Below, piece by piece: positions 9,950-26,265 of a stretch of DNA of 64,000 bases. Origin of the DNA: Sphingobacteriales bacterium 46-32 (GTDB taxonomy: Bacteria; Bacteroidota; Bacteroidia; Chitinophagales; Chitinophagaceae); NCBI GenBank assembly GCA_001898485.1, contig MKTY01000020.1:992001-1056000 (forward strand), written 5' to 3'. The translations under genes were made by a program, and so were the position numbers. The first letter of the stretch is position 1. Each line of letters begins with the position of its first letter. The notes under the pieces are model-generated. The model made no database searches. It was given only the letters and a program-made list of their open reading frames with translations, and was not told the DNA's origin.

Positions 9950-10639
9950 TTATCCTGTTACAAACCTGTACCCTATCCCTTTGATCGTAATTATCTCCAG
10001 TGCAGGGTCATCTTTAAGGTAACTGCGTAGTTTGGTAATATATACATCCAGATTGCGGCTATTGAAAAAAGAATCATTACCCCAGAGCAGGTTAAGAATG
10101 TCTTTGCGGTCAATTACTTTATCCCTGTTTTCAGCAAGGAGTTTCAGGAGCTCGCTTTCGCGGTAAGAAAGTTTCCGTTCTTCCACGCCATTGCTCAATA
10201 CCTGGCGGTTGAGATGAAACACAAGGCGGCCAAGATTTACACTGTCGCCTGTCAGCTTTTGAGGCGCTTCGGTCTTACGGCGAAGCGCATTCTGAATCCG
10301 CACAATCAGCTCTTCCATACTAAATGGTTTGCGGATATAATCATTGGCCCCCAGCCCAAATCCCTTTACCACATCTTCGGTCTGTATTTTGGCTGTAAGA
10401 AAAATAATGGGCACTTCTTCGTCGAGCTGACGAATTTCGTCTGCAATTGCAAACCCGTCTTTATTGGGCAGCATTACATCCAGTACACATACTTCGGGTT
10501 GAAATTTTTTGAAGAGGTCTACAGCCCGGGCGCCATCACTTTCCATGGCTACTTCAAAGCCCCTGCTTTCCAGACTTTCTTTTACAATTTTGCCCAGGAA
10601 GAGCTCGTCTTCCACATACAGTACTTTTATGTTGCTCAT
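9950..10639 (-). CDS. OmpR/PhoB-family response regulator
   Basis: 229 aa. The receiver domain is at residues 1-120, with acidic pocket E10-D11, phospho-acceptor D54 in CVLDVMLPNKDG, and the conserved Thr and Lys in FLTAK and YIRKPF. A winged-helix DNA-binding domain follows at about 135-229 (LSYRESELLKLLAENRDKVI, VYITKLRSYLKDDP, IKGIGYRFV). It lies 18 nt downstream of the histidine kinase gene and is surely its partner. The direct-repeat element at 12381-12418, upstream of the divergent GLPGLI gene, and the matching copy at 22038-22075 are plausible binding sites; this is inference from position and repeat geometry. Confidence 0.93.
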   Translation of the reverse strand: MSNIKVLYVEDELFLGKIVKESLESRGFEVAMESDGARAVDLFKKFQPEVCVLDVMLPNKDGFAIADEIRQLDEEVPIIFLTAKIQTEDVVKGFGLGANDYIRKPFSMEELIVRIQNALRRKTEAPQKLTGDSVNLGRLVFHLNRQVLSNGVEERKLSYRESELLKLLAENRDKVIDRKDILNLLWGNDSFFNSRNLDVYITKLRSYLKDDPALEIITIKGIGYRFVTG

Positions 10640-10657: not shown

Positions 10658-12322
10658 TCAGACACTGCGCTGATTTTTGGGTATGATAATGGTAAAGGTA
10701 CTACCAATTCCTTCATGTGAGTCAAGGCTGATAGTGCCGCCATGCTGTTTTACCACCTGGGCCACATAACTCAGGCCCAACCCATGTCCCTTTGCATTGT
10801 GTGTGTCGCCGGTAGGCACACGGAAGAATTTTTCAAATACTTTATTGAGATAGCCGGCTGGTATGCCAATTCCATTATCGCTCACTTTCAACTCTACTTC
10901 GCCTTCGCGGCCAGTCAGCTGTACCCGGATGCTGGGATTTTCCTTACTGTACTTGAGGGCAGTGTCGAGTAGATTAAACACCACACTTTGCAGGTGCAGC
11001 CTGTCGCCCCTGAGTTGTAGTGAGCCACTGGTCTCAACGGTTATCTGTCCCCTGTATTTTTCTGTCTGCAGACGCAGAGAAGACACCACCTCATCTACCA
11101 CCTGGCCCAGGTCAAATACTTCCTGCTTCAGCTCTACATCTTTCTTTTCAAACATTGACAGTTTCAGCACCTTATCGACCAGCAGGCTCAGGCGCTGCAA
11201 TTCATTCTGGGAAATATCGAGATACTCTCGTGTGCGCTGGGGATCCTGTATGGCATTGAAGTTTTTGAGCGCTTCTATGGCCACGCCCACCGTGGCAATC
11301 GGCGTTTTAAGCTCGTGGGTGATGTTGCTCATCAGATCACTCTTCATCTGCGAAAGGCGTTGCTGACGTAAGAGGTTGCGATACAGGAAAATAAAGCTCA
11401 GCAGGGTAATGCCGACGAGGAAAACAGAAAACAGGATGGGTAGCCGGATCTTTTTTAATAAAAAGGGTGCCGGAGAGTCCATCTCTGCCTGGTAACGTTG
11501 GTGATTTAAAAAAGAGGGCCTGAAAGTAACCGAATCCATCTGGGCAGACACATTGGGAACGGCCTTATGAATAGTAAATGATACGTTGAGTTTTTCCTGC
11601 TGCATCGACTGGCTGAGCTTTTGTGTCAGTATCGGCAGGGGCAGGCTGTCTGTCAATAATGAGTCGAGCCGCAGCAGTACCTGGTCGCCGCGGTCGTTGG
11701 TGATATAAATTGTGTTGACCTCGACAACACCCGACCGCCGGGCAGAGTCGTTTGACTCGGGCTTTCTGACAGAAACTTTTTTAGGACTCAGTCTGCCTAT
11801 TGAAATGGACTGTGGTGCCTGCATCCAGGCAGCAGAATCTCGCCCAATATTTTCCCTGACAGGTGGCTTTATCACGACCATTTCACGGATGCGCGAAGGA
11901 TCAATGGAATCGAGATTAAATTTGAATGCATGACCCGAGTCCGGCACCACCCTACCTGTCGATGACTGGAGCGTGATTTTCATATTAGCTATGCGCGCCT
12001 GCTTGCGACGGATGCTATCGGCGATGGAGCTTTGCGCGAGCAGACGTACTACATTGCTGGCTTTTTCATTATAAGCCGTCCTGGGCATCGCTCTTTTTAT
12101 ATTAACAGCAGCAGCAACGGTATCTTTCAGCACCCGTTGAATCTGGCTCAGGTTTATAGAATCCTGCACATCGCGTACAGCCTCCCGCAGCAGAAAGTTG
12201 ACCCGCGTTTCAAGCACGTTTTTTTCCCGACGGTAATTTCCCCTCAGCCAATAGGCCTGAAAACCGGTAATGATGAGCATTACCAGCACCATCAATAACA
12301 CCATCCATCTCAGTCGTACCAT
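10658..12322 (-). CDS. Membrane sensor histidine kinase
   Basis: 554 aa. TM1 at about residues 7-26, an extracytoplasmic region of some 265 residues with no domain I recognise, and TM2 at about 292-316. The HisKA domain carries H336 in NITHELKTPIA. The HATPase has DNGIGIP, the FEKFFR F-box and GHGLGLS. In the N-box, NLLDTALKYS has Thr (T454) where the magnesium-coordinating Asn of the usual NLxxNA is expected, which may lower ATP binding. It is followed 18 nt downstream by its response regulator and is divergent from the GLPGLI gene. The signal is unknown. Confidence 0.92.
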   Translation of the reverse strand: MVRLRWMVLLMVLVMLIITGFQAYWLRGNYRREKNVLETRVNFLLREAVRDVQDSINLSQIQRVLKDTVAAAVNIKRAMPRTAYNEKASNVVRLLAQSSIADSIRRKQARIANMKITLQSSTGRVVPDSGHAFKFNLDSIDPSRIREMVVIKPPVRENIGRDSAAWMQAPQSISIGRLSPKKVSVRKPESNDSARRSGVVEVNTIYITNDRGDQVLLRLDSLLTDSLPLPILTQKLSQSMQQEKLNVSFTIHKAVPNVSAQMDSVTFRPSFLNHQRYQAEMDSPAPFLLKKIRLPILFSVFLVGITLLSFIFLYRNLLRQQRLSQMKSDLMSNITHELKTPIATVGVAIEALKNFNAIQDPQRTREYLDISQNELQRLSLLVDKVLKLSMFEKKDVELKQEVFDLGQVVDEVVSSLRLQTEKYRGQITVETSGSLQLRGDRLHLQSVVFNLLDTALKYSKENPSIRVQLTGREGEVELKVSDNGIGIPAGYLNKVFEKFFRVPTGDTHNAKGHGLGLSYVAQVVKQHGGTISLDSHEGIGSTFTIIIPKNQRSV

Positions 12323-12380
12323 TGGTTGCAGGTTGTTGTGGAAACAAAAGTAGGTAATCGGTTTTTAGCAGCCATTGCAT

Positions 12381-12447
12381 CTTAACCTTTATTAACCTAA
12401 ATCCAAGGTGTATTAACCTCCTGACCTGAACAGGACTTTTAGCTTTG
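12381..12447 (+). promoter_or_regulatory. Direct-repeat operator plus -7 element of the GLPGLI gene
   Basis: TTAACC recurs at 12382, 12392 and 12413, that is 10 and 21 nt apart and so on one face of the helix. The last copy ends 21 nt before TAGCTTTG (12440-12447), a match to the Bacteroidota -7 element TAnnTTTG, which lies 22 nt before the ATG. No TTG -33 element is present, so an activator bound at the repeats probably replaces it. The same arrangement occurs at 22009-22075. OmpR/PhoB-family regulators typically bind such 10-11 nt phased direct repeats. Confidence 0.7.
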
Positions 12448-12469
12448 GGCACTAATCATTTTATAAACA

Positions 12470-13258
12470 ATGAAGAATGTAATTCTGGGTGTTGCCGCCC
12501 TTTGCGGCACATTTGCCTCTGAAGCGCAACAGAAAGAAGGCAGGATCGTTTACCAGCGCAAAGTTGTTATCAATATTCAGTTCGGCGGACCCGGTACGGG
12601 TGATATTCCCCCGCAGACAAGGGTTACGCAGTTTGAGCTCAATTTTGCCAATGGCCAGATGGTCTTTCAGCAAATGGAAGATGATGCTCAGGATGAGTTA
12701 GCCGGCAGCAGTGGTGGTGTTGTAATTCGTACGATTGGCAGTAGTGCAGAAGATGTTACTTTCTTCGATTTCGCCCAAAGCCGTAAGGTAGAACAACGCG
12801 ACTTTTTCGATAAACGATTCCTGATAACAGACAGTATCCGTAAAGGCAACTGGAAACTGACCGATGAAACTAAAACCATTCTCGATCACCAGTGCCGCAA
12901 AGCGGTCTCACAACGTATCGGAAAACGTTCCATCATGAATATGCAAAATGGAAAAATGGAACGTAAAGAAGTAGATGATACCACCACCATAGAAGCATGG
13001 TTTACCACCGATATTCCGGTAGCGGTAGGCCCCGATGTGGCCGGACAACTGCCTGGCGCCATTCTGGAGCTGACGAGCGACAACGGGCGCTCCGTATACC
13101 AGGCTATTGAAATTTCTCCTAAAGCCAATATCAAAGCCATCAAAGAACCTTCCAAAGGCAAAAAAGTGAATCAGCAGCAATTCACGGAAGAACGTAATAA
13201 AATGCTCGATGAAATGCAACGCAATGGAGGGGGCACAATACGGTTCCGCAGTTCATAA
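12470..13258 (+). CDS. GLPGLI family exported protein
   Basis: 262 aa. A short signal peptide (MKNVILGVAALCGTFASEAQ) is followed by EGRIVYQRKV, the usual N-terminal strand of GLPGLI proteins. The naming motif is present near residue 190 as VAGQLPGAILEL. These proteins are exported in Bacteroidota, have no known activity and often sit near large outer membrane beta-barrel proteins. This gene is divergent from a two-component system and shares a precisely matching operator with the beta-barrel gene at 19179-21986, so it probably belongs to that regulon. A hairpin with a T-run follows at 13276-13307. Confidence 0.88.
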   Translation: MKNVILGVAALCGTFASEAQQKEGRIVYQRKVVINIQFGGPGTGDIPPQTRVTQFELNFANGQMVFQQMEDDAQDELAGSSGGVVIRTIGSSAEDVTFFDFAQSRKVEQRDFFDKRFLITDSIRKGNWKLTDETKTILDHQCRKAVSQRIGKRSIMNMQNGKMERKEVDDTTTIEAWFTTDIPVAVGPDVAGQLPGAILELTSDNGRSVYQAIEISPKANIKAIKEPSKGKKVNQQQFTEERNKMLDEMQRNGGGTIRFRSS

Positions 13259-13275
13259 TAATTAACCGGCATATA

Positions 13276-13307
13276 TAAAAAAGGGGCAGCACGCTGTCCC
13301 TTTTTTA
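13276..13307 (+). terminator. Rho-independent terminator after the GLPGLI gene
   Basis: Arms AAAAAGGGGCAG and CTGTCCCTTTTTT with a small loop, preceded by an A-run and followed by Ts. It lies about 20 nt after the GLPGLI stop codon. One G-T wobble is in the stem. Confidence 0.8.
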
Positions 13308-13381
13308 TTTGAGAAAATATCTGTCTCCTTTAACAAACAAACCACTATGAAACTGGCCGGCTATTGCTTAATTTTACGCTT

Positions 13382-14077
13382 ATGAAACAACTTGCCTGCC
13401 TGGTGTTACTTTTCTGTCTCGGCTCTCATACGCTGTTGCGGGCAGATAATGTGAGCAGCATTACTGCGCAGGATCCCATCGTAGCATTCTGGACCTGGTT
13501 TCAACAACATCAAAACCGGCTTCGCCTGTTTGAATCAGATCCCGGTAAATACCTGCAGGAAATCCATACCCAGGTCAAAAAAATCGGCGATGGGCTTACA
13601 ATCGAGCTTGAACCGCCTCAAAACGGCATTATCAACCTCACTTTCTCTGCAGATGGCGATCAGGAGCTTTTTCCGCTTGTACGCTCCATCGTTGATAAAG
13701 CCCCTCCCATCAAAGGCTGGCATTTTATTGCCTTCAGGCAGCGAGCAGATCTGTCGCGCGCAAAATCTATGCAGCTGAAAGTGGGTACACTTACCCTAGA
13801 TCCGCAAAGCATGAAGTTTTTTCCGGTTGTAACAGGCGACACGCTGGATATTATCATATATGTAAAAGGGCTGACACAGGCCAACTATGCAGATGTATCC
13901 TACCATGGCCTGCTGCTATTAGACAATCTGCTGGGAGAATATGATTGTGTGATGAAGGTGCGCAGTTATGACTTTCATCCCATGCCGGCTAAAAAAGAAG
14001 AACTGGATACCCTGCAGCCACTTCTTGAAATAGCCAGTTATGTGGATCGTTTTCATGCCAGCCGAAAACCCCGATAA
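13382..14077 (+). CDS. Exported protein of unknown function
   Basis: 231 aa from the ATG at 13382; a TTG six codons upstream is possible. A signal peptide is visible (QLACLVLLFCLGSHTLLRA). I do not recognise a family for the mature part, which begins QDPIVAFWTWFQQHQNRLRL and contains a repeated pattern of short acidic and hydrophobic stretches. The next gene, an OmpA-like protein, starts 10 nt downstream and is also exported, so the two probably form an operon with an envelope role. Confidence 0.75.
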   Translation: MKQLACLVLLFCLGSHTLLRADNVSSITAQDPIVAFWTWFQQHQNRLRLFESDPGKYLQEIHTQVKKIGDGLTIELEPPQNGIINLTFSADGDQELFPLVRSIVDKAPPIKGWHFIAFRQRADLSRAKSMQLKVGTLTLDPQSMKFFPVVTGDTLDIIIYVKGLTQANYADVSYHGLLLLDNLLGEYDCVMKVRSYDFHPMPAKKEELDTLQPLLEIASYVDRFHASRKPR

Positions 14078-14087
14078 TTAACCTGCC

Positions 14088-14513
14088 ATGCACCTTCGCA
14101 TTTTTTCGCTGCTGACAATATTACTTGCATGGGCACATACCGGCCATGCACAGCAAAGCACAGAGACAGTTCCTGTTTTTTTTAAAACCAATAGTTCTGT
14201 TATCGATCCACGCTACTACCCCAAACTGGATGCTATTGGCAGCATTTATGCCGGCGATGAGTCTGCTTTTCTCAAAATTTTTGGTTTTGCCGATCCTGTC
14301 GGCAGGGCCACTTACAATGATTCTCTTTCCGAACGTCGCGCCCGGGCCGTATTGGAATATCTCAACAAACGGTTTGATATCGACAGCAGCCGGTTATTTG
14401 TAACCTGGCTGGGCGAAGAAACCGATGCATACGATCTGCACTTTCCCGAGGCTCATATACAACAGCGCTGTGTAGATGTGGTAGTCTATTTCCGTAATCC
14501 ACTGGTCCGGTAA
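14088..14513 (+). CDS. Small OmpA C-terminal-like periplasmic protein
   Basis: 141 aa. Signal peptide at residues 1-21 (ending GHAQ). The rest is one OmpA-like fold: VFFKTNSSVIDPRYYPKLDAI, then KIFGFADPVGRATYNDSLSERRARAVLEYL, which contains the family's G-x-(A/T)-D and N-x-x-L-S-x-x-R-A features used for peptidoglycan binding. There is no barrel or lipobox, so it is a free periplasmic domain. It lies 10 nt after an unknown exported protein and probably shares its transcript. Confidence 0.82.
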   Translation: MHLRIFSLLTILLAWAHTGHAQQSTETVPVFFKTNSSVIDPRYYPKLDAIGSIYAGDESAFLKIFGFADPVGRATYNDSLSERRARAVLEYLNKRFDIDSSRLFVTWLGEETDAYDLHFPEAHIQQRCVDVVVYFRNPLVR

Positions 14514-14669
14514 TCGTAAACCGCCTATAAGTAAAGAATCATCCTTACAAACATCGCCTTGCATTCTGCTGCACGTAATTCTACTGTGGAGATTTTTTCT
14601 GCCTGCAGCATCTTCTTCAACATAAATATTTGATTATTCCGTCTTATCTTTCTCCTCCATTTATCAACA

Positions 14670-15245
14670 ATGCACAAGCCGCTTTTCGAAGATCAGGTTT
14701 TTGAAAAAAAAGATTTCAGTGCAACCGGCTTCCCACTGGGAGAATACGATAATTGTCATTTTATCAACTGCAACCTGGCAAACACCCAGCTGGACTCATG
14801 CGTATTCAGTGAATGTATTTTTACCGGCTGCAACCTGAGTACCGCCGGTCTTCAGGCAACCTCGCTACGCGATGTAAATTTTGAGCAATGCAAGCTCCTT
14901 GGCCTTCATTTCGACACCTGCGATAAGTTTCTTATTGAATTTTCGTTCGACAATTGTGTAATGGACCTTTGTACATTTTATCAGCTTCGTATCAGGAAAA
15001 CTGTTTTCCGCAACTGCTCTGTAAAAGAAGCCGATTTTACGGAGGCTGATCTTGGCGCCGGTGTTTTTGATGGGTGTGATCTGCAGCATGCACGCTTTGA
15101 CCGTACCAATCTCGAAGGAGCCGATTTTCGTACTGCATTCAATTATATCCTGGACCCCTCTGTCAATAAAATCAAAAAAGCACGGTTTTCCCTGGCTGGC
15201 CTGCCGGGATTACTGGCGCATTATGATATCAATATCACTCATTAA
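14670..15245 (+). CDS. Pentapeptide-repeat protein, Qnr-like
   Basis: 191 aa, made almost wholly of pentapeptide repeats of the A/C-(D/N)-(L/F)-x-x type: CNLANTQLDSCVFSECIFTG and ADFTEADLGAGVFDGCDLQH, then ADFRTAFNYILDP. Length, the Cys-rich character and a short non-repeat break resemble Qnr/MfpA-type proteins, which fold as a right-handed quadrilateral helix mimicking DNA and binding DNA gyrase. Chromosomal relatives have variable or unknown roles, so resistance should not be assumed. No signal peptide; cytoplasmic. Confidence 0.85.
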   Translation: MHKPLFEDQVFEKKDFSATGFPLGEYDNCHFINCNLANTQLDSCVFSECIFTGCNLSTAGLQATSLRDVNFEQCKLLGLHFDTCDKFLIEFSFDNCVMDLCTFYQLRIRKTVFRNCSVKEADFTEADLGAGVFDGCDLQHARFDRTNLEGADFRTAFNYILDPSVNKIKKARFSLAGLPGLLAHYDINITH

Positions 15246-15291
15246 TTATTTAGCCACCTGTAAACCTTTCCCAAGCACCACCCATCATCCA

Positions 15292-15744
15292 ATGCAGCAA
15301 CTAATCCTTCCCCGGAAATGGACCGGCTATTTTCGTTTTGGCACCGCCTATTCACTCAATCAACAGTTATTACGCGTTGCCTTCGAGCTGGAACTTAATT
15401 TCAATAATTTCCTGTTTGACGGAATATGTACAGATGAATATACTGCACAACTATTTGACGGTCCCGCTCATGTAAAAGGTGAGTATGACGAGCATACAGT
15501 TCAGTTTGTAAAAAAATATCCGGCATTACTGGCCATTGATGACAATGACAAGGTATATGTTGATCACAGCCAGCCGCCCGCACCCATTTTTTATAAAGGA
15601 AAAATCAGGAAGCACTGGTGGACCCGTCGCCTGTATGCAACAGGCATATGGACCATCACCGTGCTGGCTCCAGATTATAATGGGTCGCCTGTAACACGCA
15701 CTGTTGACGGTCGATGGAAAATGTGGGCCAGCTCCTCTAAATAA
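15292..15744 (+). CDS. Hypothetical protein
   Basis: 150 aa from the ATG at 15292; the frame is open further upstream but would overlap the pentapeptide gene. No family recognised. It has no signal peptide or membrane segment and is rich in aromatic residues (RKWTGYFRFGTAY, RKHWWTRRLYATGIWTI). It lies 46 nt after the pentapeptide gene on the same strand. A strong hairpin follows immediately at 15745. Confidence 0.7.
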   Translation: MQQLILPRKWTGYFRFGTAYSLNQQLLRVAFELELNFNNFLFDGICTDEYTAQLFDGPAHVKGEYDEHTVQFVKKYPALLAIDDNDKVYVDHSQPPAPIFYKGKIRKHWWTRRLYATGIWTITVLAPDYNGSPVTRTVDGRWKMWASSSK

Positions 15745-15774
15745 AAAGCAACATCGGAATACCGGTGTTGCTTT
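15745..15774. terminator. Bidirectional terminator between the hypothetical gene and copZ
   Basis: Arms AAAGCAACATCGG and CCGGTGTTGCTTT around an AATA loop, with one T-G wobble. Read on the minus strand it ends in a T-rich run (TTTTTATTT), so it terminates copZ best, but it can serve both convergent genes. Confidence 0.8.
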
Positions 15775-15806
15775 CAATAAAACTTATACACGTTCAGCAG
15801 CGTTCG

Positions 15807-16016
15807 TTACTTTAATTGCTCCGCTTTGTAACCGGCTTCCGTTACCGCCTGTATTACCACGGCCCCTTCTATAGGTGCCTCTACTGTCAGCTTTTTATCA
15901 GGGTCTGTCACATCTACCGTCCAGAGCCCCTCACCTACCCGCTGGTTCAGGTAAGGCGTTACTTTTTCAATGCAGCCACTGCATTTGATATTCGTTTTGA
16001 ATGTTTTTGTTTCCAT
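15807..16016 (-). CDS. Heavy-metal-associated domain protein (copper chaperone-like)
   Basis: 69 aa, a single HMA domain with ferredoxin-like fold. The metal-binding CxxC is C12-C15 in IKCSGCIEKV, where the usual Met-x-Cys is Lys-Cys. VDVTDPDKKLTVEAP and VTEAGYKAEQL fit the family. It probably carries Cu(I) in the cytoplasm and exchanges it with CopA, whose gene is 95 nt upstream on the same strand. A -7-like TAGCTTTG at 16049-16042 suggests it may also have its own promoter. Confidence 0.87.
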   Translation of the reverse strand: METKTFKTNIKCSGCIEKVTPYLNQRVGEGLWTVDVTDPDKKLTVEAPIEGAVVIQAVTEAGYKAEQLK

Positions 16017-16041
16017 ATTTATTTCTGTTTAATCGCTTTTG

Positions 16042-16049
16042 CAAAGCTA
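16042..16049 (-). promoter_or_regulatory. -7 element upstream of the copper chaperone gene
   Basis: TAGCTTTG on the minus strand matches TAnnTTTG, 25 nt before the chaperone ATG. No TTG is found at the expected -33 distance, so this is a candidate only. Confidence 0.45.
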
Positions 16050-16111
16050 TCAGCAGTCTAAAAACACGTTGTTACATAATATAGGCACCGGCTTATATAA
16101 TTTTAAGCCCC

Positions 16112-18364
16112 TTATAAACGCGTCCATTTCAGCCGCAGGCTATTGGCTACCACACTTACGCTGCTGAGCGCCATGGCCGCACCAGCCAGCATTGGATCAA
16201 GTTGAAAACCGTTTATGGGCGCGAGTGCCCCTGCTGCTATAGGTATACCGATCAGGTTATAGATAAATGCCCAAAAAAGATTCTGACGGATGGTGTTTAC
16301 GGTTTTACCCGAAAGGCGGAGTGCATGAGGCACGGCCAGCAGGTCGGAAGTAACCAGGGTCATCCTCGCTACATCCATGGCTATATCGCTCCCTTTGCCC
16401 ATGGCTATGCTCACATCGGCCTGCGCCAGTGCCTGGCTGTCGTTGATACCATCGCCCACCATGGCTACTACTTTGCCCTGTACCTGCAACTGTTTAATAA
16501 ATCCGGCCTTATCTGCAGGCAGCATCTGCGCCCTTACCTGTTTGATGCCCACTTCGGCAGCGATGGCCAAAGCAGTGGTTTCATTATCGCCGGTAAGCAT
16601 AAATACTTCAATACCTCTTTGCTGCAAAGCGGCAATCGCTTGGCGCGAAGATGGCTTGAGTTTATCGGCTACAGCAATAGCCGCCACACGTTTATTATCT
16701 TCTGCTACCTGTATAATTGTATACGCCTTTTGCTCCCAGTCTTTCAGTTGCTGACTAAACTGCATAGAAGGTCCGTCGGTTGCTTTTTCCAGTAATTTAT
16801 CATTTCCCAAGCGGTATTCTTTCTGGTTATAAACGGCCCGAATGCCCATGCCTGTGATGTTTTCAAACTCATCCAGCTCAACCGGTTTTACCTGGCGGCT
16901 TTGCAGGCCTGCTACAATTGCCTGCGCCAATGGGTGGGCAGATCTTAACTCCATGGCAAGCAGCACCTGCAGTACCATGCCGGCATCAGCCGCAGGCTCA
17001 AGATAAAGGCCTGCCAGATCAGGATGCCCCTGGGTGATGGTGCCCGTTTTATCCAGTACAATGGCGTTTACCTTATGAGCCAGCTCCAGACTTTCGGCAT
17101 CTTTTATCAGGATATTGTTTTCGGCACCGCGACCAATACCTACCATGATGGCGGTGGGAGTAGCAAGACCCAGTGCACAGGGACAGGCAATGACCAGTAC
17201 GGTAATAGCCGCCAGTATACCTCCACTCAGTCCATTGGGCCCGCCCCACACAAGCCAGGCCAGTAAGGTAACCAGTGCAATGCCCATTACCACAGGCACA
17301 AATATGCCGGCCACCTTATCTGCCAGTTTTTGTACAGGAGCTTTACTTCCCTGCGCTTCCTGCACCATCCGGATGATCTGCGCCAGCAAAGTCTCTCCGC
17401 CTACTTTTTCTGCCTCAAATACAAAACTACCTTTTTGATTAAGCGTACCGGCAAATACGGCCGCTCCCGGCCTCTTTTCAACCGGTATGGGTTCGCCCGT
17501 AATCATGCTTTCATCTACAAATGAATCGCCACGCTGTACACGGCCATCTACAGGAATTTTATCACCAGGTTTTACCAGTATTTTATCACCGGCCTGCAGC
17601 ACATTTAAGGGTACTTCTTCATGATCGCCACCATCATTCACACGTGTCACAAACCGTGGCTGCAATCCCATCAGCTTATGAATAGCAGAAGAAGTCGAGT
17701 ATTTAGCTCTTTCTTCAAGCAGCTTGCCCAGCGAAATAAACGCGATGATCACCACAGCTGCTTCATAATACACATGGGGATGTTGTCCGCGGGCATGCCA
17801 GACCTCTGGAAAGAATGTATTGAATACACTGAATAAATAAGCAATACCGGTACTCAATGCTACCAGCGTATCCATATTGGCTTTACCGTGGCGTGCCTGC
17901 TTCCAGGCATTGATAAAAAACCTTTTACCTACAAACACAAATACGGGAGTCGACAGTGCCAGCATGATGTAATTGGCAAAAGGCATGTTCATAAAGAACA
18001 TAGCTATGACTACAAGCGGTACAGCAAAGATCAACGCCCAGATAGTACGCTGCCGCAGCTGGCGATACTGTTTCAGCTGCGCCTCTTCACGAATGGATTC
18101 TTTATTGTCTGTATCTATTACCAGGTCATAACCCACGGAGCGAACTGCAGCGCGCATGGCGGCTGCGTCTGTCTGCGCCGGGTCATATAATACCCAGGCC
18201 TGCTGGTTGGCAAAGTTGACGCCGGCATCGCTCACACCAGCAACCGACCTGAGCATTGACTCCACACTCACGGCACAGGCCGCACAGGTCATTTCCAGTA
18301 CAGGAAATATTTCTTTTTTTAATTGCTGAGCACCGCTTCCGCTTACTGTTATATTCCGTACCAT
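16112..18364 (-). CDS. copA: Cu(I)-translocating P-type ATPase
   Basis: 750 aa from the ATG at 18364, with a TTG two codons upstream as an alternative. One N-terminal HMA domain (C27-C30 in [11 protein letters not shown]). P1B-ATPase motifs follow in order: [12 protein letters not shown], the membrane metal site [13 protein letters not shown], the phosphorylation motif [10 protein letters not shown], the AHPLAQAI His-Pro motif, TGDNETTA and [15 protein letters not shown]. About eight membrane segments are visible. CPC plus a CxxC HMA domain indicates Cu(I) or Ag(I) export. It lies between an HMA-AraC regulator and a copper chaperone on one strand. Confidence 0.94.
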
Positions 18365-18451
18365 CGTCAATCTTTTTACAAAATTGCAACAGGTACTGCA
18401 GGGGAATGTTACAGGATTTGACGCCGGATGTATAAAATTTGAAGCGGAGAA

Positions 18452-19015
18452 TTATACCTTGTCAAGAGGTTTACGCAGGTTCTGCTTCAGCTCTTTAAAG
18501 GCAGTAGGAGTAAGACCGGTCACTTTCTTGAACTGTTGCGAAAGATGCTGTACACTGCTATAACCCATTTCGAAAGCGATATCGCTCAGGTTTTTCTCAT
18601 CATACCGCAGCAGCTCCTTTACCCGCTCAATACGTTGCAGAATGGCATATTTCTCAATAGTCACCCCCTCTACGGAAGAAAACAGATTGGATAAATAATG
18701 ATACTCGAGGCCCAGCCGCTCCTGCAGTATTGCCGACAACTTGAATGACTGATCATCGGTATCGTTGCTGTGTACGAGGCCAACAATGGTATTCTTGATC
18801 TTTTCTACCAGGCGGGCTTTTTTATCATCCAGCAATTCAAATCCCTGCTGCTCCAGTTTCTGACGCAGCGTTGCCAACTGATCTGCAGACGGCTCCTGAT
18901 CCAGCTCCACTTCACCTAATTGTATGCGGCGATATGGCAGGCCGGTTTCCTGCAGTTGCTGTATGACCGACATAATACACCGGTCGCATACCATATTTTT
19001 TACAAATAATACCAT
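18452..19015 (-). CDS. AraC-family regulator with N-terminal HMA-like metal-binding domain
   Basis: 187 aa. Residues 1-65 resemble an HMA fold: VKNMVCDRCIMSVIQQLQE has a CxxC at C10-C13, followed by LPYRRIQLGEVELDQ. Residues about 80-180 are an AraC/XylS double helix-turn-helix (YLSNLFSSVEGVTIEKYAI, LSDIAFEMGYSSVQHLSQQF, FKKVTGLTPTAFKEL). Fusing a metal-binding domain to this DNA-binding domain suggests direct copper sensing; this is inference. It lies 87 nt upstream of copA on the same strand and probably controls the copper genes. A -7 element (TAACTTTG) is at 19042-19035. Confidence 0.87.
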   Translation of the reverse strand: MVLFVKNMVCDRCIMSVIQQLQETGLPYRRIQLGEVELDQEPSADQLATLRQKLEQQGFELLDDKKARLVEKIKNTIVGLVHSNDTDDQSFKLSAILQERLGLEYHYLSNLFSSVEGVTIEKYAILQRIERVKELLRYDEKNLSDIAFEMGYSSVQHLSQQFKKVTGLTPTAFKELKQNLRKPLDKV

Positions 19016-19034
19016 TTATCCACCTTTACAGATG

Positions 19035-19042
19035 CAAAGTTA
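19035..19042 (-). promoter_or_regulatory. -7 element of the HMA-AraC regulator gene
   Basis: TAACTTTG on the minus strand matches TAnnTTTG and lies 19 nt before the ATG at 19015. No good -33 TTG is visible, consistent with activator-dependent transcription. Confidence 0.5.
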
Positions 19043-19116
19043 ATTAATAACACAGCAGCAGAGATTTGGTTACACCCCCCTCCCGAATAAGTCCGTCATG
19101 TATAAGGACCTGAAAT

Positions 19117-19151
19117 TTAAAAACCCCAGGCAATCAGTTGATCACCCGGGG
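19117..19151 (-). terminator. Terminator after the beta-barrel gene
   Basis: Read on the minus strand: arm CCCCGGG (19151-19145), a 14-nt loop, arm CCTGGGG (19130-19124), then TTTTTAAATTT. It lies just past the stop of the gene at 19179-21986 and separates it from the copper cluster. Confidence 0.75.
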
Positions 19152-19178
19152 CAGGTACACAGAGAAAACTGTCTTTGA

Positions 19179-21986
19179 TTAGCGGGTAATGATCCGCATA
19201 TTGCCACCCTGATTTGCGCCCAGTCCGGTTTTGCTGAGGCTGTAGGTGAAACTGATCATGGCATAGCGACGCAGGGTATTGACCCTCGAGTCTTCGATAT
19301 AGTTCTGATTACTATTGCGGCTCACTCCTATATTTTGATTCAGCATATCATTCACTCTTATCTTCAGCTCACCTCTGTTGAACTTCAGCATCTGTTTACT
19401 GATAGCGGCGTGCCATAGTGGTACTTTTGTATTGAAGCCTGCTGCCAGCTGATTATTGATATTGTAGGCAAACTCGGTGCTGAAGTGAAAGCCGGCAGGA
19501 AGATCCCACTCAACCTGTACCTCATACAGCTGTGAAAAATAACGGGTGTTGAAGGCCTTTTGCAGCGAATAACGGGTATGATTAATATTACCACCAGCTG
19601 TAAACGTCAGATTCAGTTTTTCATGCGGGTTCAGGTCAAGGGAAACACGGGGACCTACAGAAAGCATATTGATACCGTTGGCCTGGCCATTGATAAACTG
19701 GCGGCTTTTATTGTAAACAGTATTCGTGCCCAGTTGCAATGAGCCTTTCAGGAAACGAATCGGCAGGCTCAGGTTAAGATCGGAAGCAAGTGTATATACG
19801 CCATCGGTGTTAACCGGCCGGCTCTTACGTACACCATTACTGAAAACCGAGTCGCTGTTTACAATTTTATTGTCGGTTCGCATGAAATTAATAAACGCGA
19901 AGAAGTTTTTATTTTTAAACGGATTTACCCCGGTATAGTTGAACTGCAGGTTGTGCGAATACTCCTGCTTCAGGTCGGGATTACCTTCGCGGATAGCCAG
20001 TGGGTTACTGATATCAGGTACGGGCTGCAACTGCTCTACCGATGGCTGGTTGGTTGAAGTACGATAATTGAGCGTAAGGTTTTTGAACCGGGTGAAGTTA
20101 TATTGAACGCGTGCATTGGGCAGCAGGTTATAGAAAGTCTTACCGATGATGGTATCTTTTATTCCTGAGATCACTTTACCCTCCAGTGTGGAGCGTTGCC
20201 AGTTGAGGCCTACACTGTAATTGTATTTACGTTGCTGCGTGCGCAGGCGTATGCCGGCATTATTATAACCATAGGTATTTTTGAAATTATTGGTAAGCGA
20301 ATCATTCAGCTGATCATACTTACCCGATCCGGCATCATAGTCATACGTAGTCTTGTCGGACCGGCTGCGGGTATTGCTATTGGCCACACTCAGCTCTATT
20401 AACGAGCGGCGGAAAAGCGGCTCAGTGTATACCAGGCGGCCAGTATACCCGGTGAGGCTGCTTTCGTTATAACTGCGCTGGTTGATAGAATCGGTACGGT
20501 AACGCGTGCCCAGGCGATCATAAAACTGGTTTACTGATTCAAAACGGCTGTCTCCATCACTGTTGTTGAGTGTGGTCTGCAGCGCCAGCGAAAGGGTGCG
20601 TCCCTTGCGGCGGAATTTTTTACGAAAGAGGATATCGTTGCTGAAATTGAAGGCATCGTTATTGGTCGCCCGGTTGTTGTAGCCCTCGTTGCTCAACAGG
20701 CCATCTTCACCCATCTGTGTATAGTTACTGCTAACGCGGTTGCGCGTTTGCTGATAACCCAGCGATGGATTGACTTTTATAGAATGAAAAGAGTCAATAA
20801 AGTAATCAAAACCCAGGTTAAGCCGGTGCGAGTTATTGTTGTTGTCCTGAACAGATTGCTGATTGTATAAGTAGGAGGAGTCGGGTAGCAGATACTGCCG
20901 GCGCACATCCGAATTGACCCGGGGGTTGAAGTGATTGTAAAAGTAGTTGCTGGTAAAATCCAGTTTGGTGCCAATGATATTATTATAATTGATACCGCCC
21001 CCCCAGATGGTACGGATGCCCCGGTTGTTGTTGCCCATGAGTCCGGCCAGCGAGTTGTCAGACATATTCATACTCACATTACCGCCGCCATTGCGCATCA
21101 TGCGCGACAGCTCGCCGGTAAAATTCATCATATCCATAAAGGAGAAACCTTCGGTATTGTTATTATTCCCCAACCCTACCACCGACATCTGACGTGCTCC
21201 TTTGAATGAGTTTACGTTGAAGCGGCCTTCGAGCCGGTCGCGTGTGCCGCCGCCGGCCATTATTTTTCCAAACACTCCTTTCTTCTTATCCTTTTTCAGC
21301 TTGAGGTTGATCGTTTTTTCGCTGTTGCCATCGTCAAAGCCCGTGAGCTGTGCCTGGTCGCTCTGGCGGTCATATACCTGTACCTTGTCGATCGCATCGG
21401 CCGGCAGATTTTTGGTTGCCATTTTGGGATCCTTACCAAAAAACTCCTTGCCATCTACCAGTACTCTGTTCACGGTCTGCCCCTGCGCTTTTACTGTACC
21501 ATCTTTATCTACCTGCACACCGGGCAGTTTTTTGAGTAGCTGCTCTACGCTGGCATTGGGCGGTGTTTTAAAGGAGCCGGCATTGTACTGAACGGTATCA
21601 CCCACCAGTGTAACTGGCGGTGCCTCACTGCGTACAATCACCTCATCGAGCACCTGGGTGCGGTCATTCATTACCAGCTGACCCAGGTCTGGTTTAGTGA
21701 CACTGTCTGTTATGGAAAAATGTATACTGCGGTTGTGGTATGCCACGTGGGTAATGAGCAGGCGGTATTCGCCCGTTGCCAGATCGGTAAGTGAAAAACG
21801 ACCGGCATTATCGGTCATTACAAAGCCCACCAGCGATGAATCCTTTTTTTGAAGTACGGTGACGGTAGCATCTGCAACCGGCCGCTTTGCCAGTGTGTCA
21901 TAAGCCACCCCCTGTACCGACCCCTTTTGAGAAAAGGCCGGGGCCGCCAGCCATAATAAAACAAAAAGCGTAAAGCAATATCTCAT
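19179..21986 (-). CDS. Outer membrane beta-barrel protein with carboxypeptidase-regulatory-like domain, copy 1
   Basis: 935 aa. Signal peptide (CFTLFVLLWLAAPAFSQ), then a CarboxypepD_reg-like domain at about 22-105 (VQGVAYDTLAKRPVADATVT), a plug-like domain at 110-225 ([40 protein letters not shown]) and a long C-terminal beta-barrel. This is the TonB-receptor-like OMP_b-brl_3 architecture of Bacteroidota. No TonB box or SusD partner is evident and the substrate is unknown. A Met- and Asn-rich loop lies near residues 280-325. It is paralogous to 23239-26127 and shares an operator with the GLPGLI gene. Confidence 0.9.
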   Translation of the reverse strand: MRYCFTLFVLLWLAAPAFSQKGSVQGVAYDTLAKRPVADATVTVLQKKDSSLVGFVMTDNAGRFSLTDLATGEYRLLITHVAYHNRSIHFSITDSVTKPDLGQLVMNDRTQVLDEVIVRSEAPPVTLVGDTVQYNAGSFKTPPNASVEQLLKKLPGVQVDKDGTVKAQGQTVNRVLVDGKEFFGKDPKMATKNLPADAIDKVQVYDRQSDQAQLTGFDDGNSEKTINLKLKKDKKKGVFGKIMAGGGTRDRLEGRFNVNSFKGARQMSVVGLGNNNNTEGFSFMDMMNFTGELSRMMRNGGGNVSMNMSDNSLAGLMGNNNRGIRTIWGGGINYNNIIGTKLDFTSNYFYNHFNPRVNSDVRRQYLLPDSSYLYNQQSVQDNNNNSHRLNLGFDYFIDSFHSIKVNPSLGYQQTRNRVSSNYTQMGEDGLLSNEGYNNRATNNDAFNFSNDILFRKKFRRKGRTLSLALQTTLNNSDGDSRFESVNQFYDRLGTRYRTDSINQRSYNESSLTGYTGRLVYTEPLFRRSLIELSVANSNTRSRSDKTTYDYDAGSGKYDQLNDSLTNNFKNTYGYNNAGIRLRTQQRKYNYSVGLNWQRSTLEGKVISGIKDTIIGKTFYNLLPNARVQYNFTRFKNLTLNYRTSTNQPSVEQLQPVPDISNPLAIREGNPDLKQEYSHNLQFNYTGVNPFKNKNFFAFINFMRTDNKIVNSDSVFSNGVRKSRPVNTDGVYTLASDLNLSLPIRFLKGSLQLGTNTVYNKSRQFINGQANGINMLSVGPRVSLDLNPHEKLNLTFTAGGNINHTRYSLQKAFNTRYFSQLYEVQVEWDLPAGFHFSTEFAYNINNQLAAGFNTKVPLWHAAISKQMLKFNRGELKIRVNDMLNQNIGVSRNSNQNYIEDSRVNTLRRYAMISFTYSLSKTGLGANQGGNMRIITR

Positions 21987-22008
21987 AGCCTGGTTTTTTA
22001 ATCGGCTA

Positions 22009-22075
22009 CGAAAATATTCGCATTACGCTCCGGCCCGGGTTAATTTGGTTTGGATTAATGTTAATGAAGGTTAAG
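22009..22075 (-). promoter_or_regulatory. Direct-repeat operator plus -7 element of beta-barrel gene copy 1
   Basis: On the minus strand TTAACC, TTAACA and TTAACC start at 22074, 22064 and 22043, again 10 and 21 nt apart. Counting from the first base, 30 of 39 positions are identical to the element at 12381. The last repeat is 21 nt from TATTTTCG (22016-22009, one mismatch to TAnnTTTG), which is 22 nt from the ATG. Both distances equal those at the GLPGLI gene. Confidence 0.7.
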
Positions 22076-23238: not shown

Positions 23239-26127
23239 TTACTGTACACGTATACGGTCTGCATTACGATTCATCATACGGTTCATACCGGGTCCGCCAG
23301 GCATTGTCATTTGCTGACCACCATTGCCCCCCATCTTGTTTAGGTTAAACAGGAAGCTAACCATAAAGTACCGGCGCAACACAATGCTGCGGGTATCCTG
23401 CACATAGTTGTCACTGGCTGTACGGGCAATGCTCTGGTTTTGATTCAGGATATCATTTACAGAAAACTTAAGCTCTCCATTTTTCTTCTTAAAGAGCTGT
23501 TTGCTCAGACTGGCATTCCACAAAGGAATATTCTGGTTATAACCCTGCGCACGACCGGTATTGATCAGGTAACTGAAGTCGGTAGAGAATATAAAGCTGG
23601 CCGGAAGGTTATAGGAGAAATCGCCGGAGTAGGTCTGTGTCCAGTAATCTTCATTCAGATTGGTGTTGACCGTATACTTTACATCATTATATGCGAGGTT
23701 GGCACGTACGCCCACATCAAATTTTGTTTTATTGATGTTTATACCCACGCCTTGTGATACATAAGCGGTTTTGGTATAGTTCTTACGGGCACTTACCATG
23801 CTCACATCGCGTGTATAGGAAAGATTGTTGGTGATATTTACACTCGATCCTTTCCATTTCGGATTCTTGAAAGGAAGACCAACGGTAAAGAAAGAGTTAC
23901 CGCGATAATACCCATTCAGGTTCTGATAATTGGTGATCTGTACCGGACCATTTACGGTGATATTATTCACGATCTTATTCTGCGTGGTGCTGAAACTCAG
24001 GTTGGCAGCGATCAAACGGAAGGTGAGAATGTTGAAGGTATTGAACCCGATATTGAAATTGTGCGAGAACTCCTGTTTCAGGTTCGGGTTACCGATCTTG
24101 ATATTAAGTGTATCGGTAGCATCCGGTACATTCTGCAATTGAGATACGCTGGGCTGATTGGTACGTCCGTTGTACGAGAATCGCAGGTTTTTGCTGCGTG
24201 TGGGGGTCCAGTTAAAATTGGCTGTGGGGAAGAAGTTGGTATATGACTGGCGGGTAAGCGAGTCTTTCTGCGTCAGCGCCTGGTAACTCTGGCTTTCGAG
24301 TGTGGCGCGTTGTACACCTATACCAAACTGATAGTTGTATTTCTTTTCCTGCACCCTGAAGTTGGTACCAAAACGATGGGCAACAAAGCTGTTTTCAAAA
24401 TTATTAGTCAGGAGCAGATTGGGCGTCTCGTATTTCTGCGAAGAAGGATCAAAATTGTAGGTCTCCTTTTCAGAAGTACTCTTATTCCGTGTATAGGCAT
24501 AGTTAACTTCCAGCAGTTTATTCAGACCAAATGGTTCTGTATAAGATGTGCTGAACACGTTGTTGTTGGTCGTTGTCTTCTGCTCATTGGTCTGGTTTTG
24601 ATTCACCGTGCGGTAAAGGATGCCATCCTGAGTATAAAAGTCGTTGTTGGAATAGGTCAGCCCATCGCTGGTGCTGCGGCCGATTGTACCATTCCAGCCG
24701 AGTGTAAGCGTACGACCCGTTTTTCCGAATTTGTGGCGAAACAACAGGTTGTTACCCCAGTTGAAACCATCGCGCTCATTCTGGTTATTGGTACGTGCCG
24801 TAACAGCCAGAAACTCTTTGGCGGGAATAAGGGAGCTACTGAACGATGTGTCATTGCTATAGCTCTCTGAGTGCTGCAGGGTCAGCGATGGAGTATACAG
24901 AATAGAGTTGGCCGAATCTATCTGGTATTCAAACCGCACATTGAACCGGTGATTCAGGTTTTTACTCTGCGAAATACTTTGCTTGTTAAGTGTAACTATT
25001 GAATCAGGATAAGTAGTGCGGCGCAACATATCCTGTTGCTGACGTGTGTCTGAATTGGACAGGAAATAGCTGCCTGTGAGTTTCATTTTACCAGCCCATT
25101 CATTGCTGTAGTTAAGACCTGCAGAGAGTGATTTGATGAGGCCGGTGCTGCCGCTGCCGCCACCACCGCCACCAAACATGGCGCCCATGCCACCGCGTAC
25201 CTGCATGCCACCCATCATACCACCACCGCCGCCGCCGCCACCGAATCCGCTAAAACCGCCCATGCTGCTGATGATGTCTGAAAATGAAAAACCCTGCTTA
25301 TTGATATTATTACCATTAAATAGTATTGAAGTACGCTGATTACCGTTAAAGCGGTTGATGCTCAGGTTACCTTCATAATGTCCTTTGTCGCCATAAGCAA
25401 CAAGCGCCCGGCCAAAGTAGCCTTTGTTACGATCCTTTTTCAGTTTAATATTAATCGTCTTGCTGCGGCTTCCGTCATCAATCTTGGTAAACTTTGCCTG
25501 GTCGCTCATATCGTCAAATACCTGTACACTTTCGATCATATCGGCTGTCAGGTTTTTGGTAGCCAGTTTGGGGTCATTTCCAAAAAACTCCTTACCGTCT
25601 ACCAGTACCTTTTGTACAGACTCGCCCTGTGATTTTACGTTACCCTCTTTATCTACTTCCATACCGGGGAGTTTCTTAAGCAGATCTTCCGCTGTGGCAT
25701 TGGGCTGGGTACGGAACCCGCTGGCATTAAACTGTACTGTATCGTTTTTTACAACTATAGGAGCCTCATTGGTTACAATAACCTCACCCAGCATTTTGGT
25801 TGCCGGGAAGATATCGCCCAGGTCTATTACTTTCTTTTCATCGGTGATGGCGACCTTCCGCACCGTTTCGCCATAGGTCTGGTGAGAGAGAATCAGGCGG
25901 TAGTTGCCATTGCTGAGGCCTTTAATTTCAAAAGCCCCCTGTTTGTTGGTCAATGTAAAAGTAACCAGCGAAGAGTCTTTTGCCTGCTGCAAAGACACGG
26001 TAGCATCCGTAACTGGTTGTTTAGAAAGGGAATCGGTCAATTTTCCGCGAATAATACCATCTGTTTTTTGGGCTTGTGCCGCAAAGGATAGTAAAATAAG
26101 AGCTAATGCAGTTAGAAATTTTCTCAT
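23239..26127 (-). CDS. Outer membrane beta-barrel protein with carboxypeptidase-regulatory-like domain, copy 2
   Basis: 962 aa from the ATG at 26127, which begins a good signal peptide ([20 protein letters not shown]); an in-frame GTG 20 codons upstream is rejected. Architecture equals copy 1: CarboxypepD_reg-like domain, plug-like domain ([40 protein letters not shown]) and a long barrel. A Gly-Met-rich loop ([20 protein letters not shown] and following, encoded at about 25140-25275) and a Met-rich C-terminus ([15 protein letters not shown]) are unusual. The upstream region lacks the TTAACC operator of copy 1, so regulation probably differs. Confidence 0.9.
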
Positions 26128-26265
26128 ATAATAATATAGGTATACGAAATTAGACGTAAACAGGCGTAGAAGCCTGCGCCCAATCACGCAAAATGCATGA
26201 GAGAATAGATGAACTGCACAAAAGGCTCGGTGAACGGGTTATCAAATGGCCAGCCGGTTGGGACA

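Follow-up and report, generated by a model that had tools for sequence, protein, structure and literature searches.

Pho boxes consist of phased direct repeats that follow one another at a plain spacing of 11. In Escherichia coli, most sites of the regulator ArcA contain three to five direct repeats, with centre-to-centre distances of mainly 11 or 22 base pairs (bp) (PMC3798270, available portion). For the PhoPR two-component system of Riemerella anatipestifer, the available portion of a DNA affinity purification sequencing (DAP-seq) study describes a motif in which TTTAACA are the most conserved nucleotides, which lies around 579 of 583 peaks and whose likeness to that of ArcA was remarked upon by the investigators; PhoP was further found to bind upstream of its own operon, and among the targets that it affects directly, in both directions, are five GLPGLI proteins and an outer-membrane beta-barrel protein (PMC9603813). 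Two GLPGLI genes are also listed with a negative change after deletion of PG0720 in Porphyromonas gingivalis (PMC8757827, available portion), and in Flavobacterium psychrophilum a -7 consensus, TAnnTTTG at -12 to -5, has been described (PMC9723704, available portion). Here we describe a putative operator, an array of three TTAAC repeats, that stands ahead of a GLPGLI gene and again ahead of a beta-barrel gene in a stretch of 64,000 nucleotides (nt) from Sphingobacteriales bacterium 46-32 (contig MKTY01000020.1, positions 992,001 to 1,056,000), the whole of which is referred to below as the window.

One array lies between the GLPGLI gene and a divergent operon for a sensor kinase and a response regulator, and the other ahead of the beta-barrel gene (Table 1). 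The arrays are nearly constant in sequence and spacing, are conserved in other genomes and are associated with the same genes. Judging from sequence comparison, and with a probability of about 0.88, they would be operators of the adjacent RprY-like regulator, which would switch on the GLPGLI gene and the barrel gene together, and probably the kinase-regulator operon as well; within that reading, the identity of the array-binding protein, its dependence on phosphorylation, and activation in preference to repression are what we infer.

Two promoters with a common geometry

The original prediction held that these two promoters share a long element and an exact geometry, and nearly all of it was reproduced. 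An ungapped alignment over 12381-12419 gives 30 identities in 39 positions, the TTAAC repeats lie 10 and 21 nt apart in both arrays (starts at 0, 10 and 31), and the -7 element stands 22 nt ahead of the ATG at both the GLPGLI and the beta-barrel gene. The predicted distance of 21 nt between the last repeat and the -7 box holds if the repeat is taken as TTAACC; counted from the end of TTAAC, as is done here, it is 22 nt at both promoters. When the ungapped comparison is extended to the 90 nt that lead to the ATG, the two upstream regions agree at 45 positions, and the likeness is therefore confined to the array and its spacing. Upstream stretches in the window (150 nt or less each) were compared in 990 pairs, of which the two arrays form the best 38-mer match (30, against 25 for the next), and the best-matching 38-mer has the same offset in both promoters.

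Across the genome of the same organism (5.49 megabases in 27 contigs), the bare TTAAC triple occurs three times, and a composite of the triple, a 22-nt gap and TANNTTTG, with up to three mismatches, is found at three places, the reversed control giving zero in each case. Because these controls are zero, and because the pair is the best of 990, the resemblance is far above chance, as had been claimed from the exactness of the match. The third composite (C19:260576-260641) has a paralogous kinase-regulator pair as its neighbour and a gene for a 222-residue DUF6624 protein downstream; its array (G000:C19:260606-260641, locus L235 at 2142, minus strand) is at the extreme end of the paralogous regulator gene. 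A wider regulon, sought with a 15-base core and three mismatches or fewer, was rejected: the weaker matches are noise, since 50 were found against 46 in the reversed control. The regulon in this genome is small, and comprises the two promoters of the system together with the divergent kinase side of one of them.

Conservation of the array and its association with target genes

A 36-nt pattern with at most two mismatches was matched in 31 of 147 genomes of the family (2 matches in the reversed control), and at 29 of 31 family loci examined, the two window loci included, what stands directly downstream is the GLPGLI gene or else a relative of the barrel gene, the latter with at least 42% identity; at locus L056 the downstream gene is a distant barrel of 25% identity. 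A scan with the exact 36-nt consensus over one genome per species in GTDB (84,980 species) returned 101 sites in 96 stretches, of which, by protein comparison, 51 lie ahead of a GLPGLI gene and 43 ahead of a barrel gene. The other seven include four assigned from protein starts of 15 to 74 residues (L149, a GLPGLI-like start; L098, L123 and L156, barrel protein starts) and two in which the array is followed by a small gene and then by GLPGLI on the same strand (L109 and L116), so that 100 of the 101 sites precede a GLPGLI or barrel gene, two of them via a small first gene, and the remaining one is L168. That small gene (L109 at 4236 and L116 at 402, both plus strand) encodes a signal-like start. 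Among the matches listed (80 of the 96 stretches), the titles name Bacteroidota, and where a family or genus is given it is Saprospiraceae/Lewinella or a genus that we take to belong to Chitinophagaceae. One stretch titled Williamsia sp. (L138, JADCRZ010000019.1) is probably mislabelled, and carries the kinase, the regulator, GLPGLI, the barrel gene and two arrays. At L270 the array and promoter occur twice (1635 and 2374, minus strand), 739 bp apart, with identical 66-nt sites.

The original prediction had named a lack of conservation in related genomes as the outcome that would speak against it; conservation was found, and beside the same kinase. A chance likeness of AT-rich promoters, or the copying of a repeated element into two locations, might be suggested by the AT-richness of TTAAC and by the mere 9.6 kilobases (kb) between the two sites, but the control counts (zero, or 2 matches against 31 genomes) and the confinement of identity to the array and its spacing (45 of 90 overall) leave that explanation with a negligible probability, and the conservation in 96 stretches of other genomes refutes it.

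The array further accompanies particular gene arrangements. Among 57 GLPGLI genes in the family sample, 45 combine the array with a divergent kinase, 12 lack both and none is mixed; no gene was dropped from this count, absence of the kinase means none within the stretch examined, and one of the 12 (L228) is uninformative because it lies at a contig start. When relatives of the barrel gene are ranked, the array is present in 40 of the first 43 and in one of the next 27, among the matches listed (70 of the first 71 places, with G074:C108:226-3027 left out); two of the three misses in the first 43 are cut by a contig end (L303 and L327), and the third (L342) has about 160 nt upstream of its ATG without an array. 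A barrel gene that shares an operon with GLPGLI lacks a separate array (zero of four have one), whereas 15 of 16 barrel genes that stand apart from GLPGLI do have one; in the single exception (L078) the two genes lie on the same strand, 326 nt from each other. At L265, a single array is followed by the barrel gene, GLPGLI, the kinase and the regulator, all in one direction. Comparative genomics thus supports the earlier proposal that the kinase, the regulator, the GLPGLI protein and the outer-membrane protein constitute one regulon: the array accompanies every kinase-divergent GLPGLI gene (45 of 45), is found at the nearest barrel relatives and hardly at paralogs, and is duplicated for separate genes but single for those that share an operon.

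Spacing to the -7 box and the divergent promoter

In 94 of the 101 exact-scan sites, pattern matching places the -7 box at 22 nt from the array; one more has this distance by eye (L145, TACTTTGC), and the other six have 12 nt. The 45 GLPGLI arrays of the family sample have spacings of 22 nt (33 arrays), 12 nt (10), 21 nt (one) and 11 nt (one). For the 41 barrel arrays among the matches listed the distance is always 22 nt, in two cases as established by reading the sequence (L308, and L316 with TAATTTAG). The 22-nt and 12-nt classes differ by one helical turn, as would be expected if a bound protein must face the polymerase, and they constitute a natural helical-phasing experiment. Column frequencies in the exact-scan sites give no canonical -33 element fixed between the array and the -7 box.

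These distances bear on whether the neighbouring regulator, phosphorylated or not, might instead bind the arrays as a repressor, with a spacing that reflects occlusion in place of polymerase contact. Repression would find a parallel in Riemerella, where deletion of PhoP, with its TTTAACA motif, led to two GLPGLI targets going up and three going down (Tables 1 and 2 in the available portion of PMC9603813). The exact 22 or 12 nt in 101 sites, however, fits polymerase contact better than occlusion, and the lack of a fixed canonical -33 element also speaks against a repressor, although the GLPGLI sites have a weak CT(G); we regard repression as unlikely, if well short of negligible.

On the kinase side, 44 of 50 GLPGLI sites (one of 51 having been dropped for its less than 60 nt of upstream sequence) have a reverse -7 box (CAAANNTA) at a distance of 28 or 29 nt from the array; the same box was found at 29 nt in four of the seven unassigned sites, and in only one of 43 barrel sites, there at 36 nt. 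Because this box recurs at a regular distance, one array appears to stand between two divergent promoters; that of the window is likewise flanked by divergent -7 boxes, and therefore probably controls the kinase-regulator operon too.

Distribution in the phylum and the regulator clade

With one mismatch allowed, 21 of 395 genomes of a phylum sample contain the composite, at 27 places altogether (reversed control 0); six of these genomes are from the family, five others from the class and ten from other classes. A relative of the window kinase stands at a site in 20 of the 21, and the regulator was seen as well in 18 of these, the stretch examined ending first in the other two (G021 and G216). 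In nine of the ten genomes of other classes there are four TTAAC-like repeats, at 0, 10, 20 and 31, and the target in those classes is another small protein gene with a signal-like start; in four such targets that were checked, no Pfam family exceeded its cut-off. At L301 (5077, minus strand; G001:C21), an array lies between a paralogous kinase and a gene for a TMEM260-like (O-mannosyl-transferase-like) membrane protein, where other outputs appear to be wired to the same operator.

A regulator tree was made from 57 of 61 rows, those shorter than 215 residues or with fewer than 180 residues aligned to the window regulator being dropped (the 57 include two identical rows). Those with the array all belong to one RprY-like group of 50 (support 100/99), 44 with the array and six without, and none of the seven other OmpR-family rows has it; five label changes are needed, and none of 500 shuffles gave as few. 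At the threshold used, no array was found in L291-L293, which hold the regulators nearest RprY, or at the kinase-regulator loci L231, L233 and L234. Most array-bearing rows have a stretch close to SR[NS][LM]DVYI, which, from general knowledge of the regulator family, we take to be the recognition helix.

The presumed recognition helix is similar among RprY-like regulators, even in those without a nearby array, so that paralogs could bind the same repeats. The genome of the window encodes four such regulators (221-297 bits), and the binder might be a different one (for example the paralog on C20 near 1534693) or some other factor, with adjacency to the kinase incidental. The arrays, however, stay with the adjacent kinase-regulator pair when loci are rearranged and from one class to another, and the array of the C19 paralog adjoins its own kinase-regulator pair, which makes a different regulator distinctly improbable.

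Weighing of the evidence and a proposed mechanism

Several observations weigh against assignment of the arrays to the adjacent regulator as activating operators. The system is patchy: the strict pattern finds it in 31 of 147 genomes of the family, and the composite occurs in only 21 of the 395 phylum genomes and in none of five from the same order but another family. One family match (L060) lies beside a kinase without a recognisable target gene, and one phylum match (G469) is without a kinase-regulator pair within about 4 kb. The array is no fixed mark of the clade, because six RprY-like regulators in the tree, including the one in the same genome that is nearest to RprY (L291), have none at their locus. 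The Fisher value for the association of array and kinase at GLPGLI genes (1.4e-12) overstates independence, because related genes share ancestry. At distant loci, the kinase-side -7 box was found at 27 or 29 nt in eight of 20 sites and at 12 nt in one, and was not seen in 11. Finally, the CT(G) that follows the last TTAAC in GLPGLI sites (C in 39, T in 37 and G in 23 of 47) could be a weak -33 element, and the lack of a canonical one is for that reason no proof of activator dependence.

In the activation mechanism that we favour, the sensor kinase would phosphorylate the regulator, dimers of which would bind phased TTAAC half-sites in tandem, at offsets of 0, 10, about 20 and 31; the third of these half-sites, at about 20, is degenerate in the window, whereas the majority of the distant genomes examined have it intact. 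Once bound, the regulator would recruit RNA polymerase to the -7 box that follows after 22 nt, in a promoter that lacks a canonical -33 element; in this way the GLPGLI and outer-membrane beta-barrel genes would be switched on together. The array between the divergent genes would also control the kinase-regulator operon, as autoregulation of either sign. A considerably more speculative extension, which we hold to be doubtful, is that the array represents a phylum-wide, hard-wired operator code of RprY-like systems in an ancestral Bacteroidota envelope-homeostasis response, in which the sensor evolves fast while the kinase core, the geometry and the family-level output are fixed, and in which a GLPGLI protein of LolA/RseB fold feeds back on the sensor as RseB does in the sigma-E response.

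The literature searched (preprints and most subscription journals lying outside its scope) contained no description of this operator, and nothing that joins GLPGLI with Chitinophaga. GLPGLI, a protein of unknown function in Pfam, and the OMP_b-brl_3 barrel that is the target here are without an assigned role, and the arrays offer a concrete and testable target list for a little-studied two-component system. An exact operator also provides a regulon definition that can be scanned for, as well as a handle on the signals sensed by RprY-like kinases, and makes the arrays a well-defined candidate for activation that depends on the face of the helix, at the unusual -7 promoter of Bacteroidota.

Genes of the module

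Table 1. Genes, arrays and promoter elements of the system, in window positions.
Feature	Positions	Strand	Description
Response regulator	9950..10639	-	OmpR/PhoB family, RprY-like (Response_reg and Trans_reg_C); presumed array binder
Sensor histidine kinase	10658..12322	-	HisKA and HATPase_c; fast-evolving sensor part, conserved kinase part
-7 box of kinase-regulator promoter	12345..12352	-	TACTTTTG; 29 nt off the array, 22 nt ahead of the kinase ATG
First TTAAC triple array	12382..12417	+	Offsets 0, 10, 31; putative operator of the GLPGLI promoter, common to the divergent kinase promoter
-7 box of GLPGLI promoter	12440..12447	+	TAGCTTTG; 22 nt past the array, 22 nt ahead of the ATG
GLPGLI family protein	12470..13258	+	TIGR01200, Porph_ging; predicted LolA/RseB/PNGase F-II N-domain-like fold
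Outer-membrane beta-barrel protein	19179..21986	-	CarboxypepD_reg and OMP_b-brl_3; TonB-dependent-transporter-like predicted fold
-7-like box of beta-barrel promoter	22009..22016	-	TATTTTCG; 22 nt past the array, 22 nt ahead of the ATG
Second TTAAC triple array	22039..22074	-	Putative operator of the beta-barrel gene

The regulator is placed in the OmpR/PhoB family by PF00072 (94.9 bits) and PF00486 (70.3 bits), both above cut-off. Its best NCBIfam model is RprY (NF051850), at 236.9 bits against a curated equivalog cut-off of 370, and it scores 165.2 bits with the PhoB model of Bacteroidetes (NF053854, cut-off 270) and 115 bits with the ArcA model (cut-off 334); the gene nearest to RprY in the same genome is a different one, which at 297 bits is also below the cut-off. 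The sensor part of the kinase (residues 30-295) has six other matches in the set at an E value of 1e-3, with 23-29% identity, while the kinase part has 61, the top one with 76% identity; by such comparison, the input appears to evolve fast while the output stays fixed.

The GLPGLI protein matches TIGR01200 with 122.2 bits (cut-off 50). Its structural model has a mean predicted local distance difference test (pLDDT) score of 79.7, and the fold search is led by the N-terminal domain of PNGase F-II (Z 15-16; for 7zgn, Z 16.1, 3.4 Å over 171 residues), with which Pfam concurs (42.7 bits). The next ranks are taken by a Thermus protein, VioE, ependymin, LolA and RseB/MucB at Z of about 9-11 (LolA, 1ua8: Z 10.0, 4.0 Å, 139 residues; MucB, 6jau: Z 9.8, 4.1 Å, 141 residues), middling values that may reflect a common bowl fold only. 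The barrel protein matches PF14905 (OMP_b-brl_3) with 141.1 bits (cut-off 27), and its AlphaFold model (mean pLDDT 79.5) ranks TonB-dependent transporters first (Cir, E 6.9e-17), with TM-scores that are low (0.25-0.38 by query length, among the 50 matches listed). For both models a common fold is no proof of function, and on this modelling the target pair is probably an envelope module, in which a periplasmic protein of LolA/RseB fold is combined with a TonB-dependent-transporter-like barrel.

A barrel paralog of 40% identity (23239-26187, L351) directly adjoins the barrel gene and has no array, and a similar pairing is seen in several relatives. Between the two arrays, 16112-19015 holds a copper-type P-ATPase beside an AraC-type regulator, the N-terminal part of which is weakly like a copper chaperone (CopZ).

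Comparison with known systems

The arrays had been likened to PhoB- and SphR-type boxes, and the part of that comparison concerned with phased direct repeats and a candidate binder of the OmpR/PhoB family stands. The spacing here, however, is 10 and 21 where Pho boxes have a plain 11, the targets are no known phosphate genes, and the regulator remains under the PhoB cut-off (165 against 270 bits), for which reason membership among Pho boxes was dropped and the ArcA or Riemerella-PhoP type is taken to be nearer.

RprXY of Bacteroides and Porphyromonas is related to the present system in that RprY is the best NCBIfam match of the regulator, but the score of 236.9 bits falls short of 370, and the named RprY target, nqrA, is unrelated; the available portions of PMC6032018, PMC3646045 and PMC3764172 give no operator motif for RprY.

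ArcA, like the window regulator, belongs to the OmpR/PhoB family and uses a multi-repeat phased operator, and the window arrays share its architecture of at least three direct repeats at intervals of roughly one or two turns of the helix. The ArcA sites, as far as the available portion of PMC3798270 describes them, vary in number and architecture, whereas both geometry and target genes are nearly invariant here. Riemerella PhoPR resembles the present system in being a Bacteroidota two-component system with a TTAAC-containing motif and with GLPGLI and outer-membrane targets; the available portion of PMC9603813 gives no fixed spacing of repeats or of the -7 box for PhoP, and its 579 of 583 peaks contrast with two promoters in this genome. 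By analogy, the nearest model would be the phased TTAAC repeats of the ArcA or Riemerella-PhoP type, for which Riemerella PhoP constitutes the published precedent.

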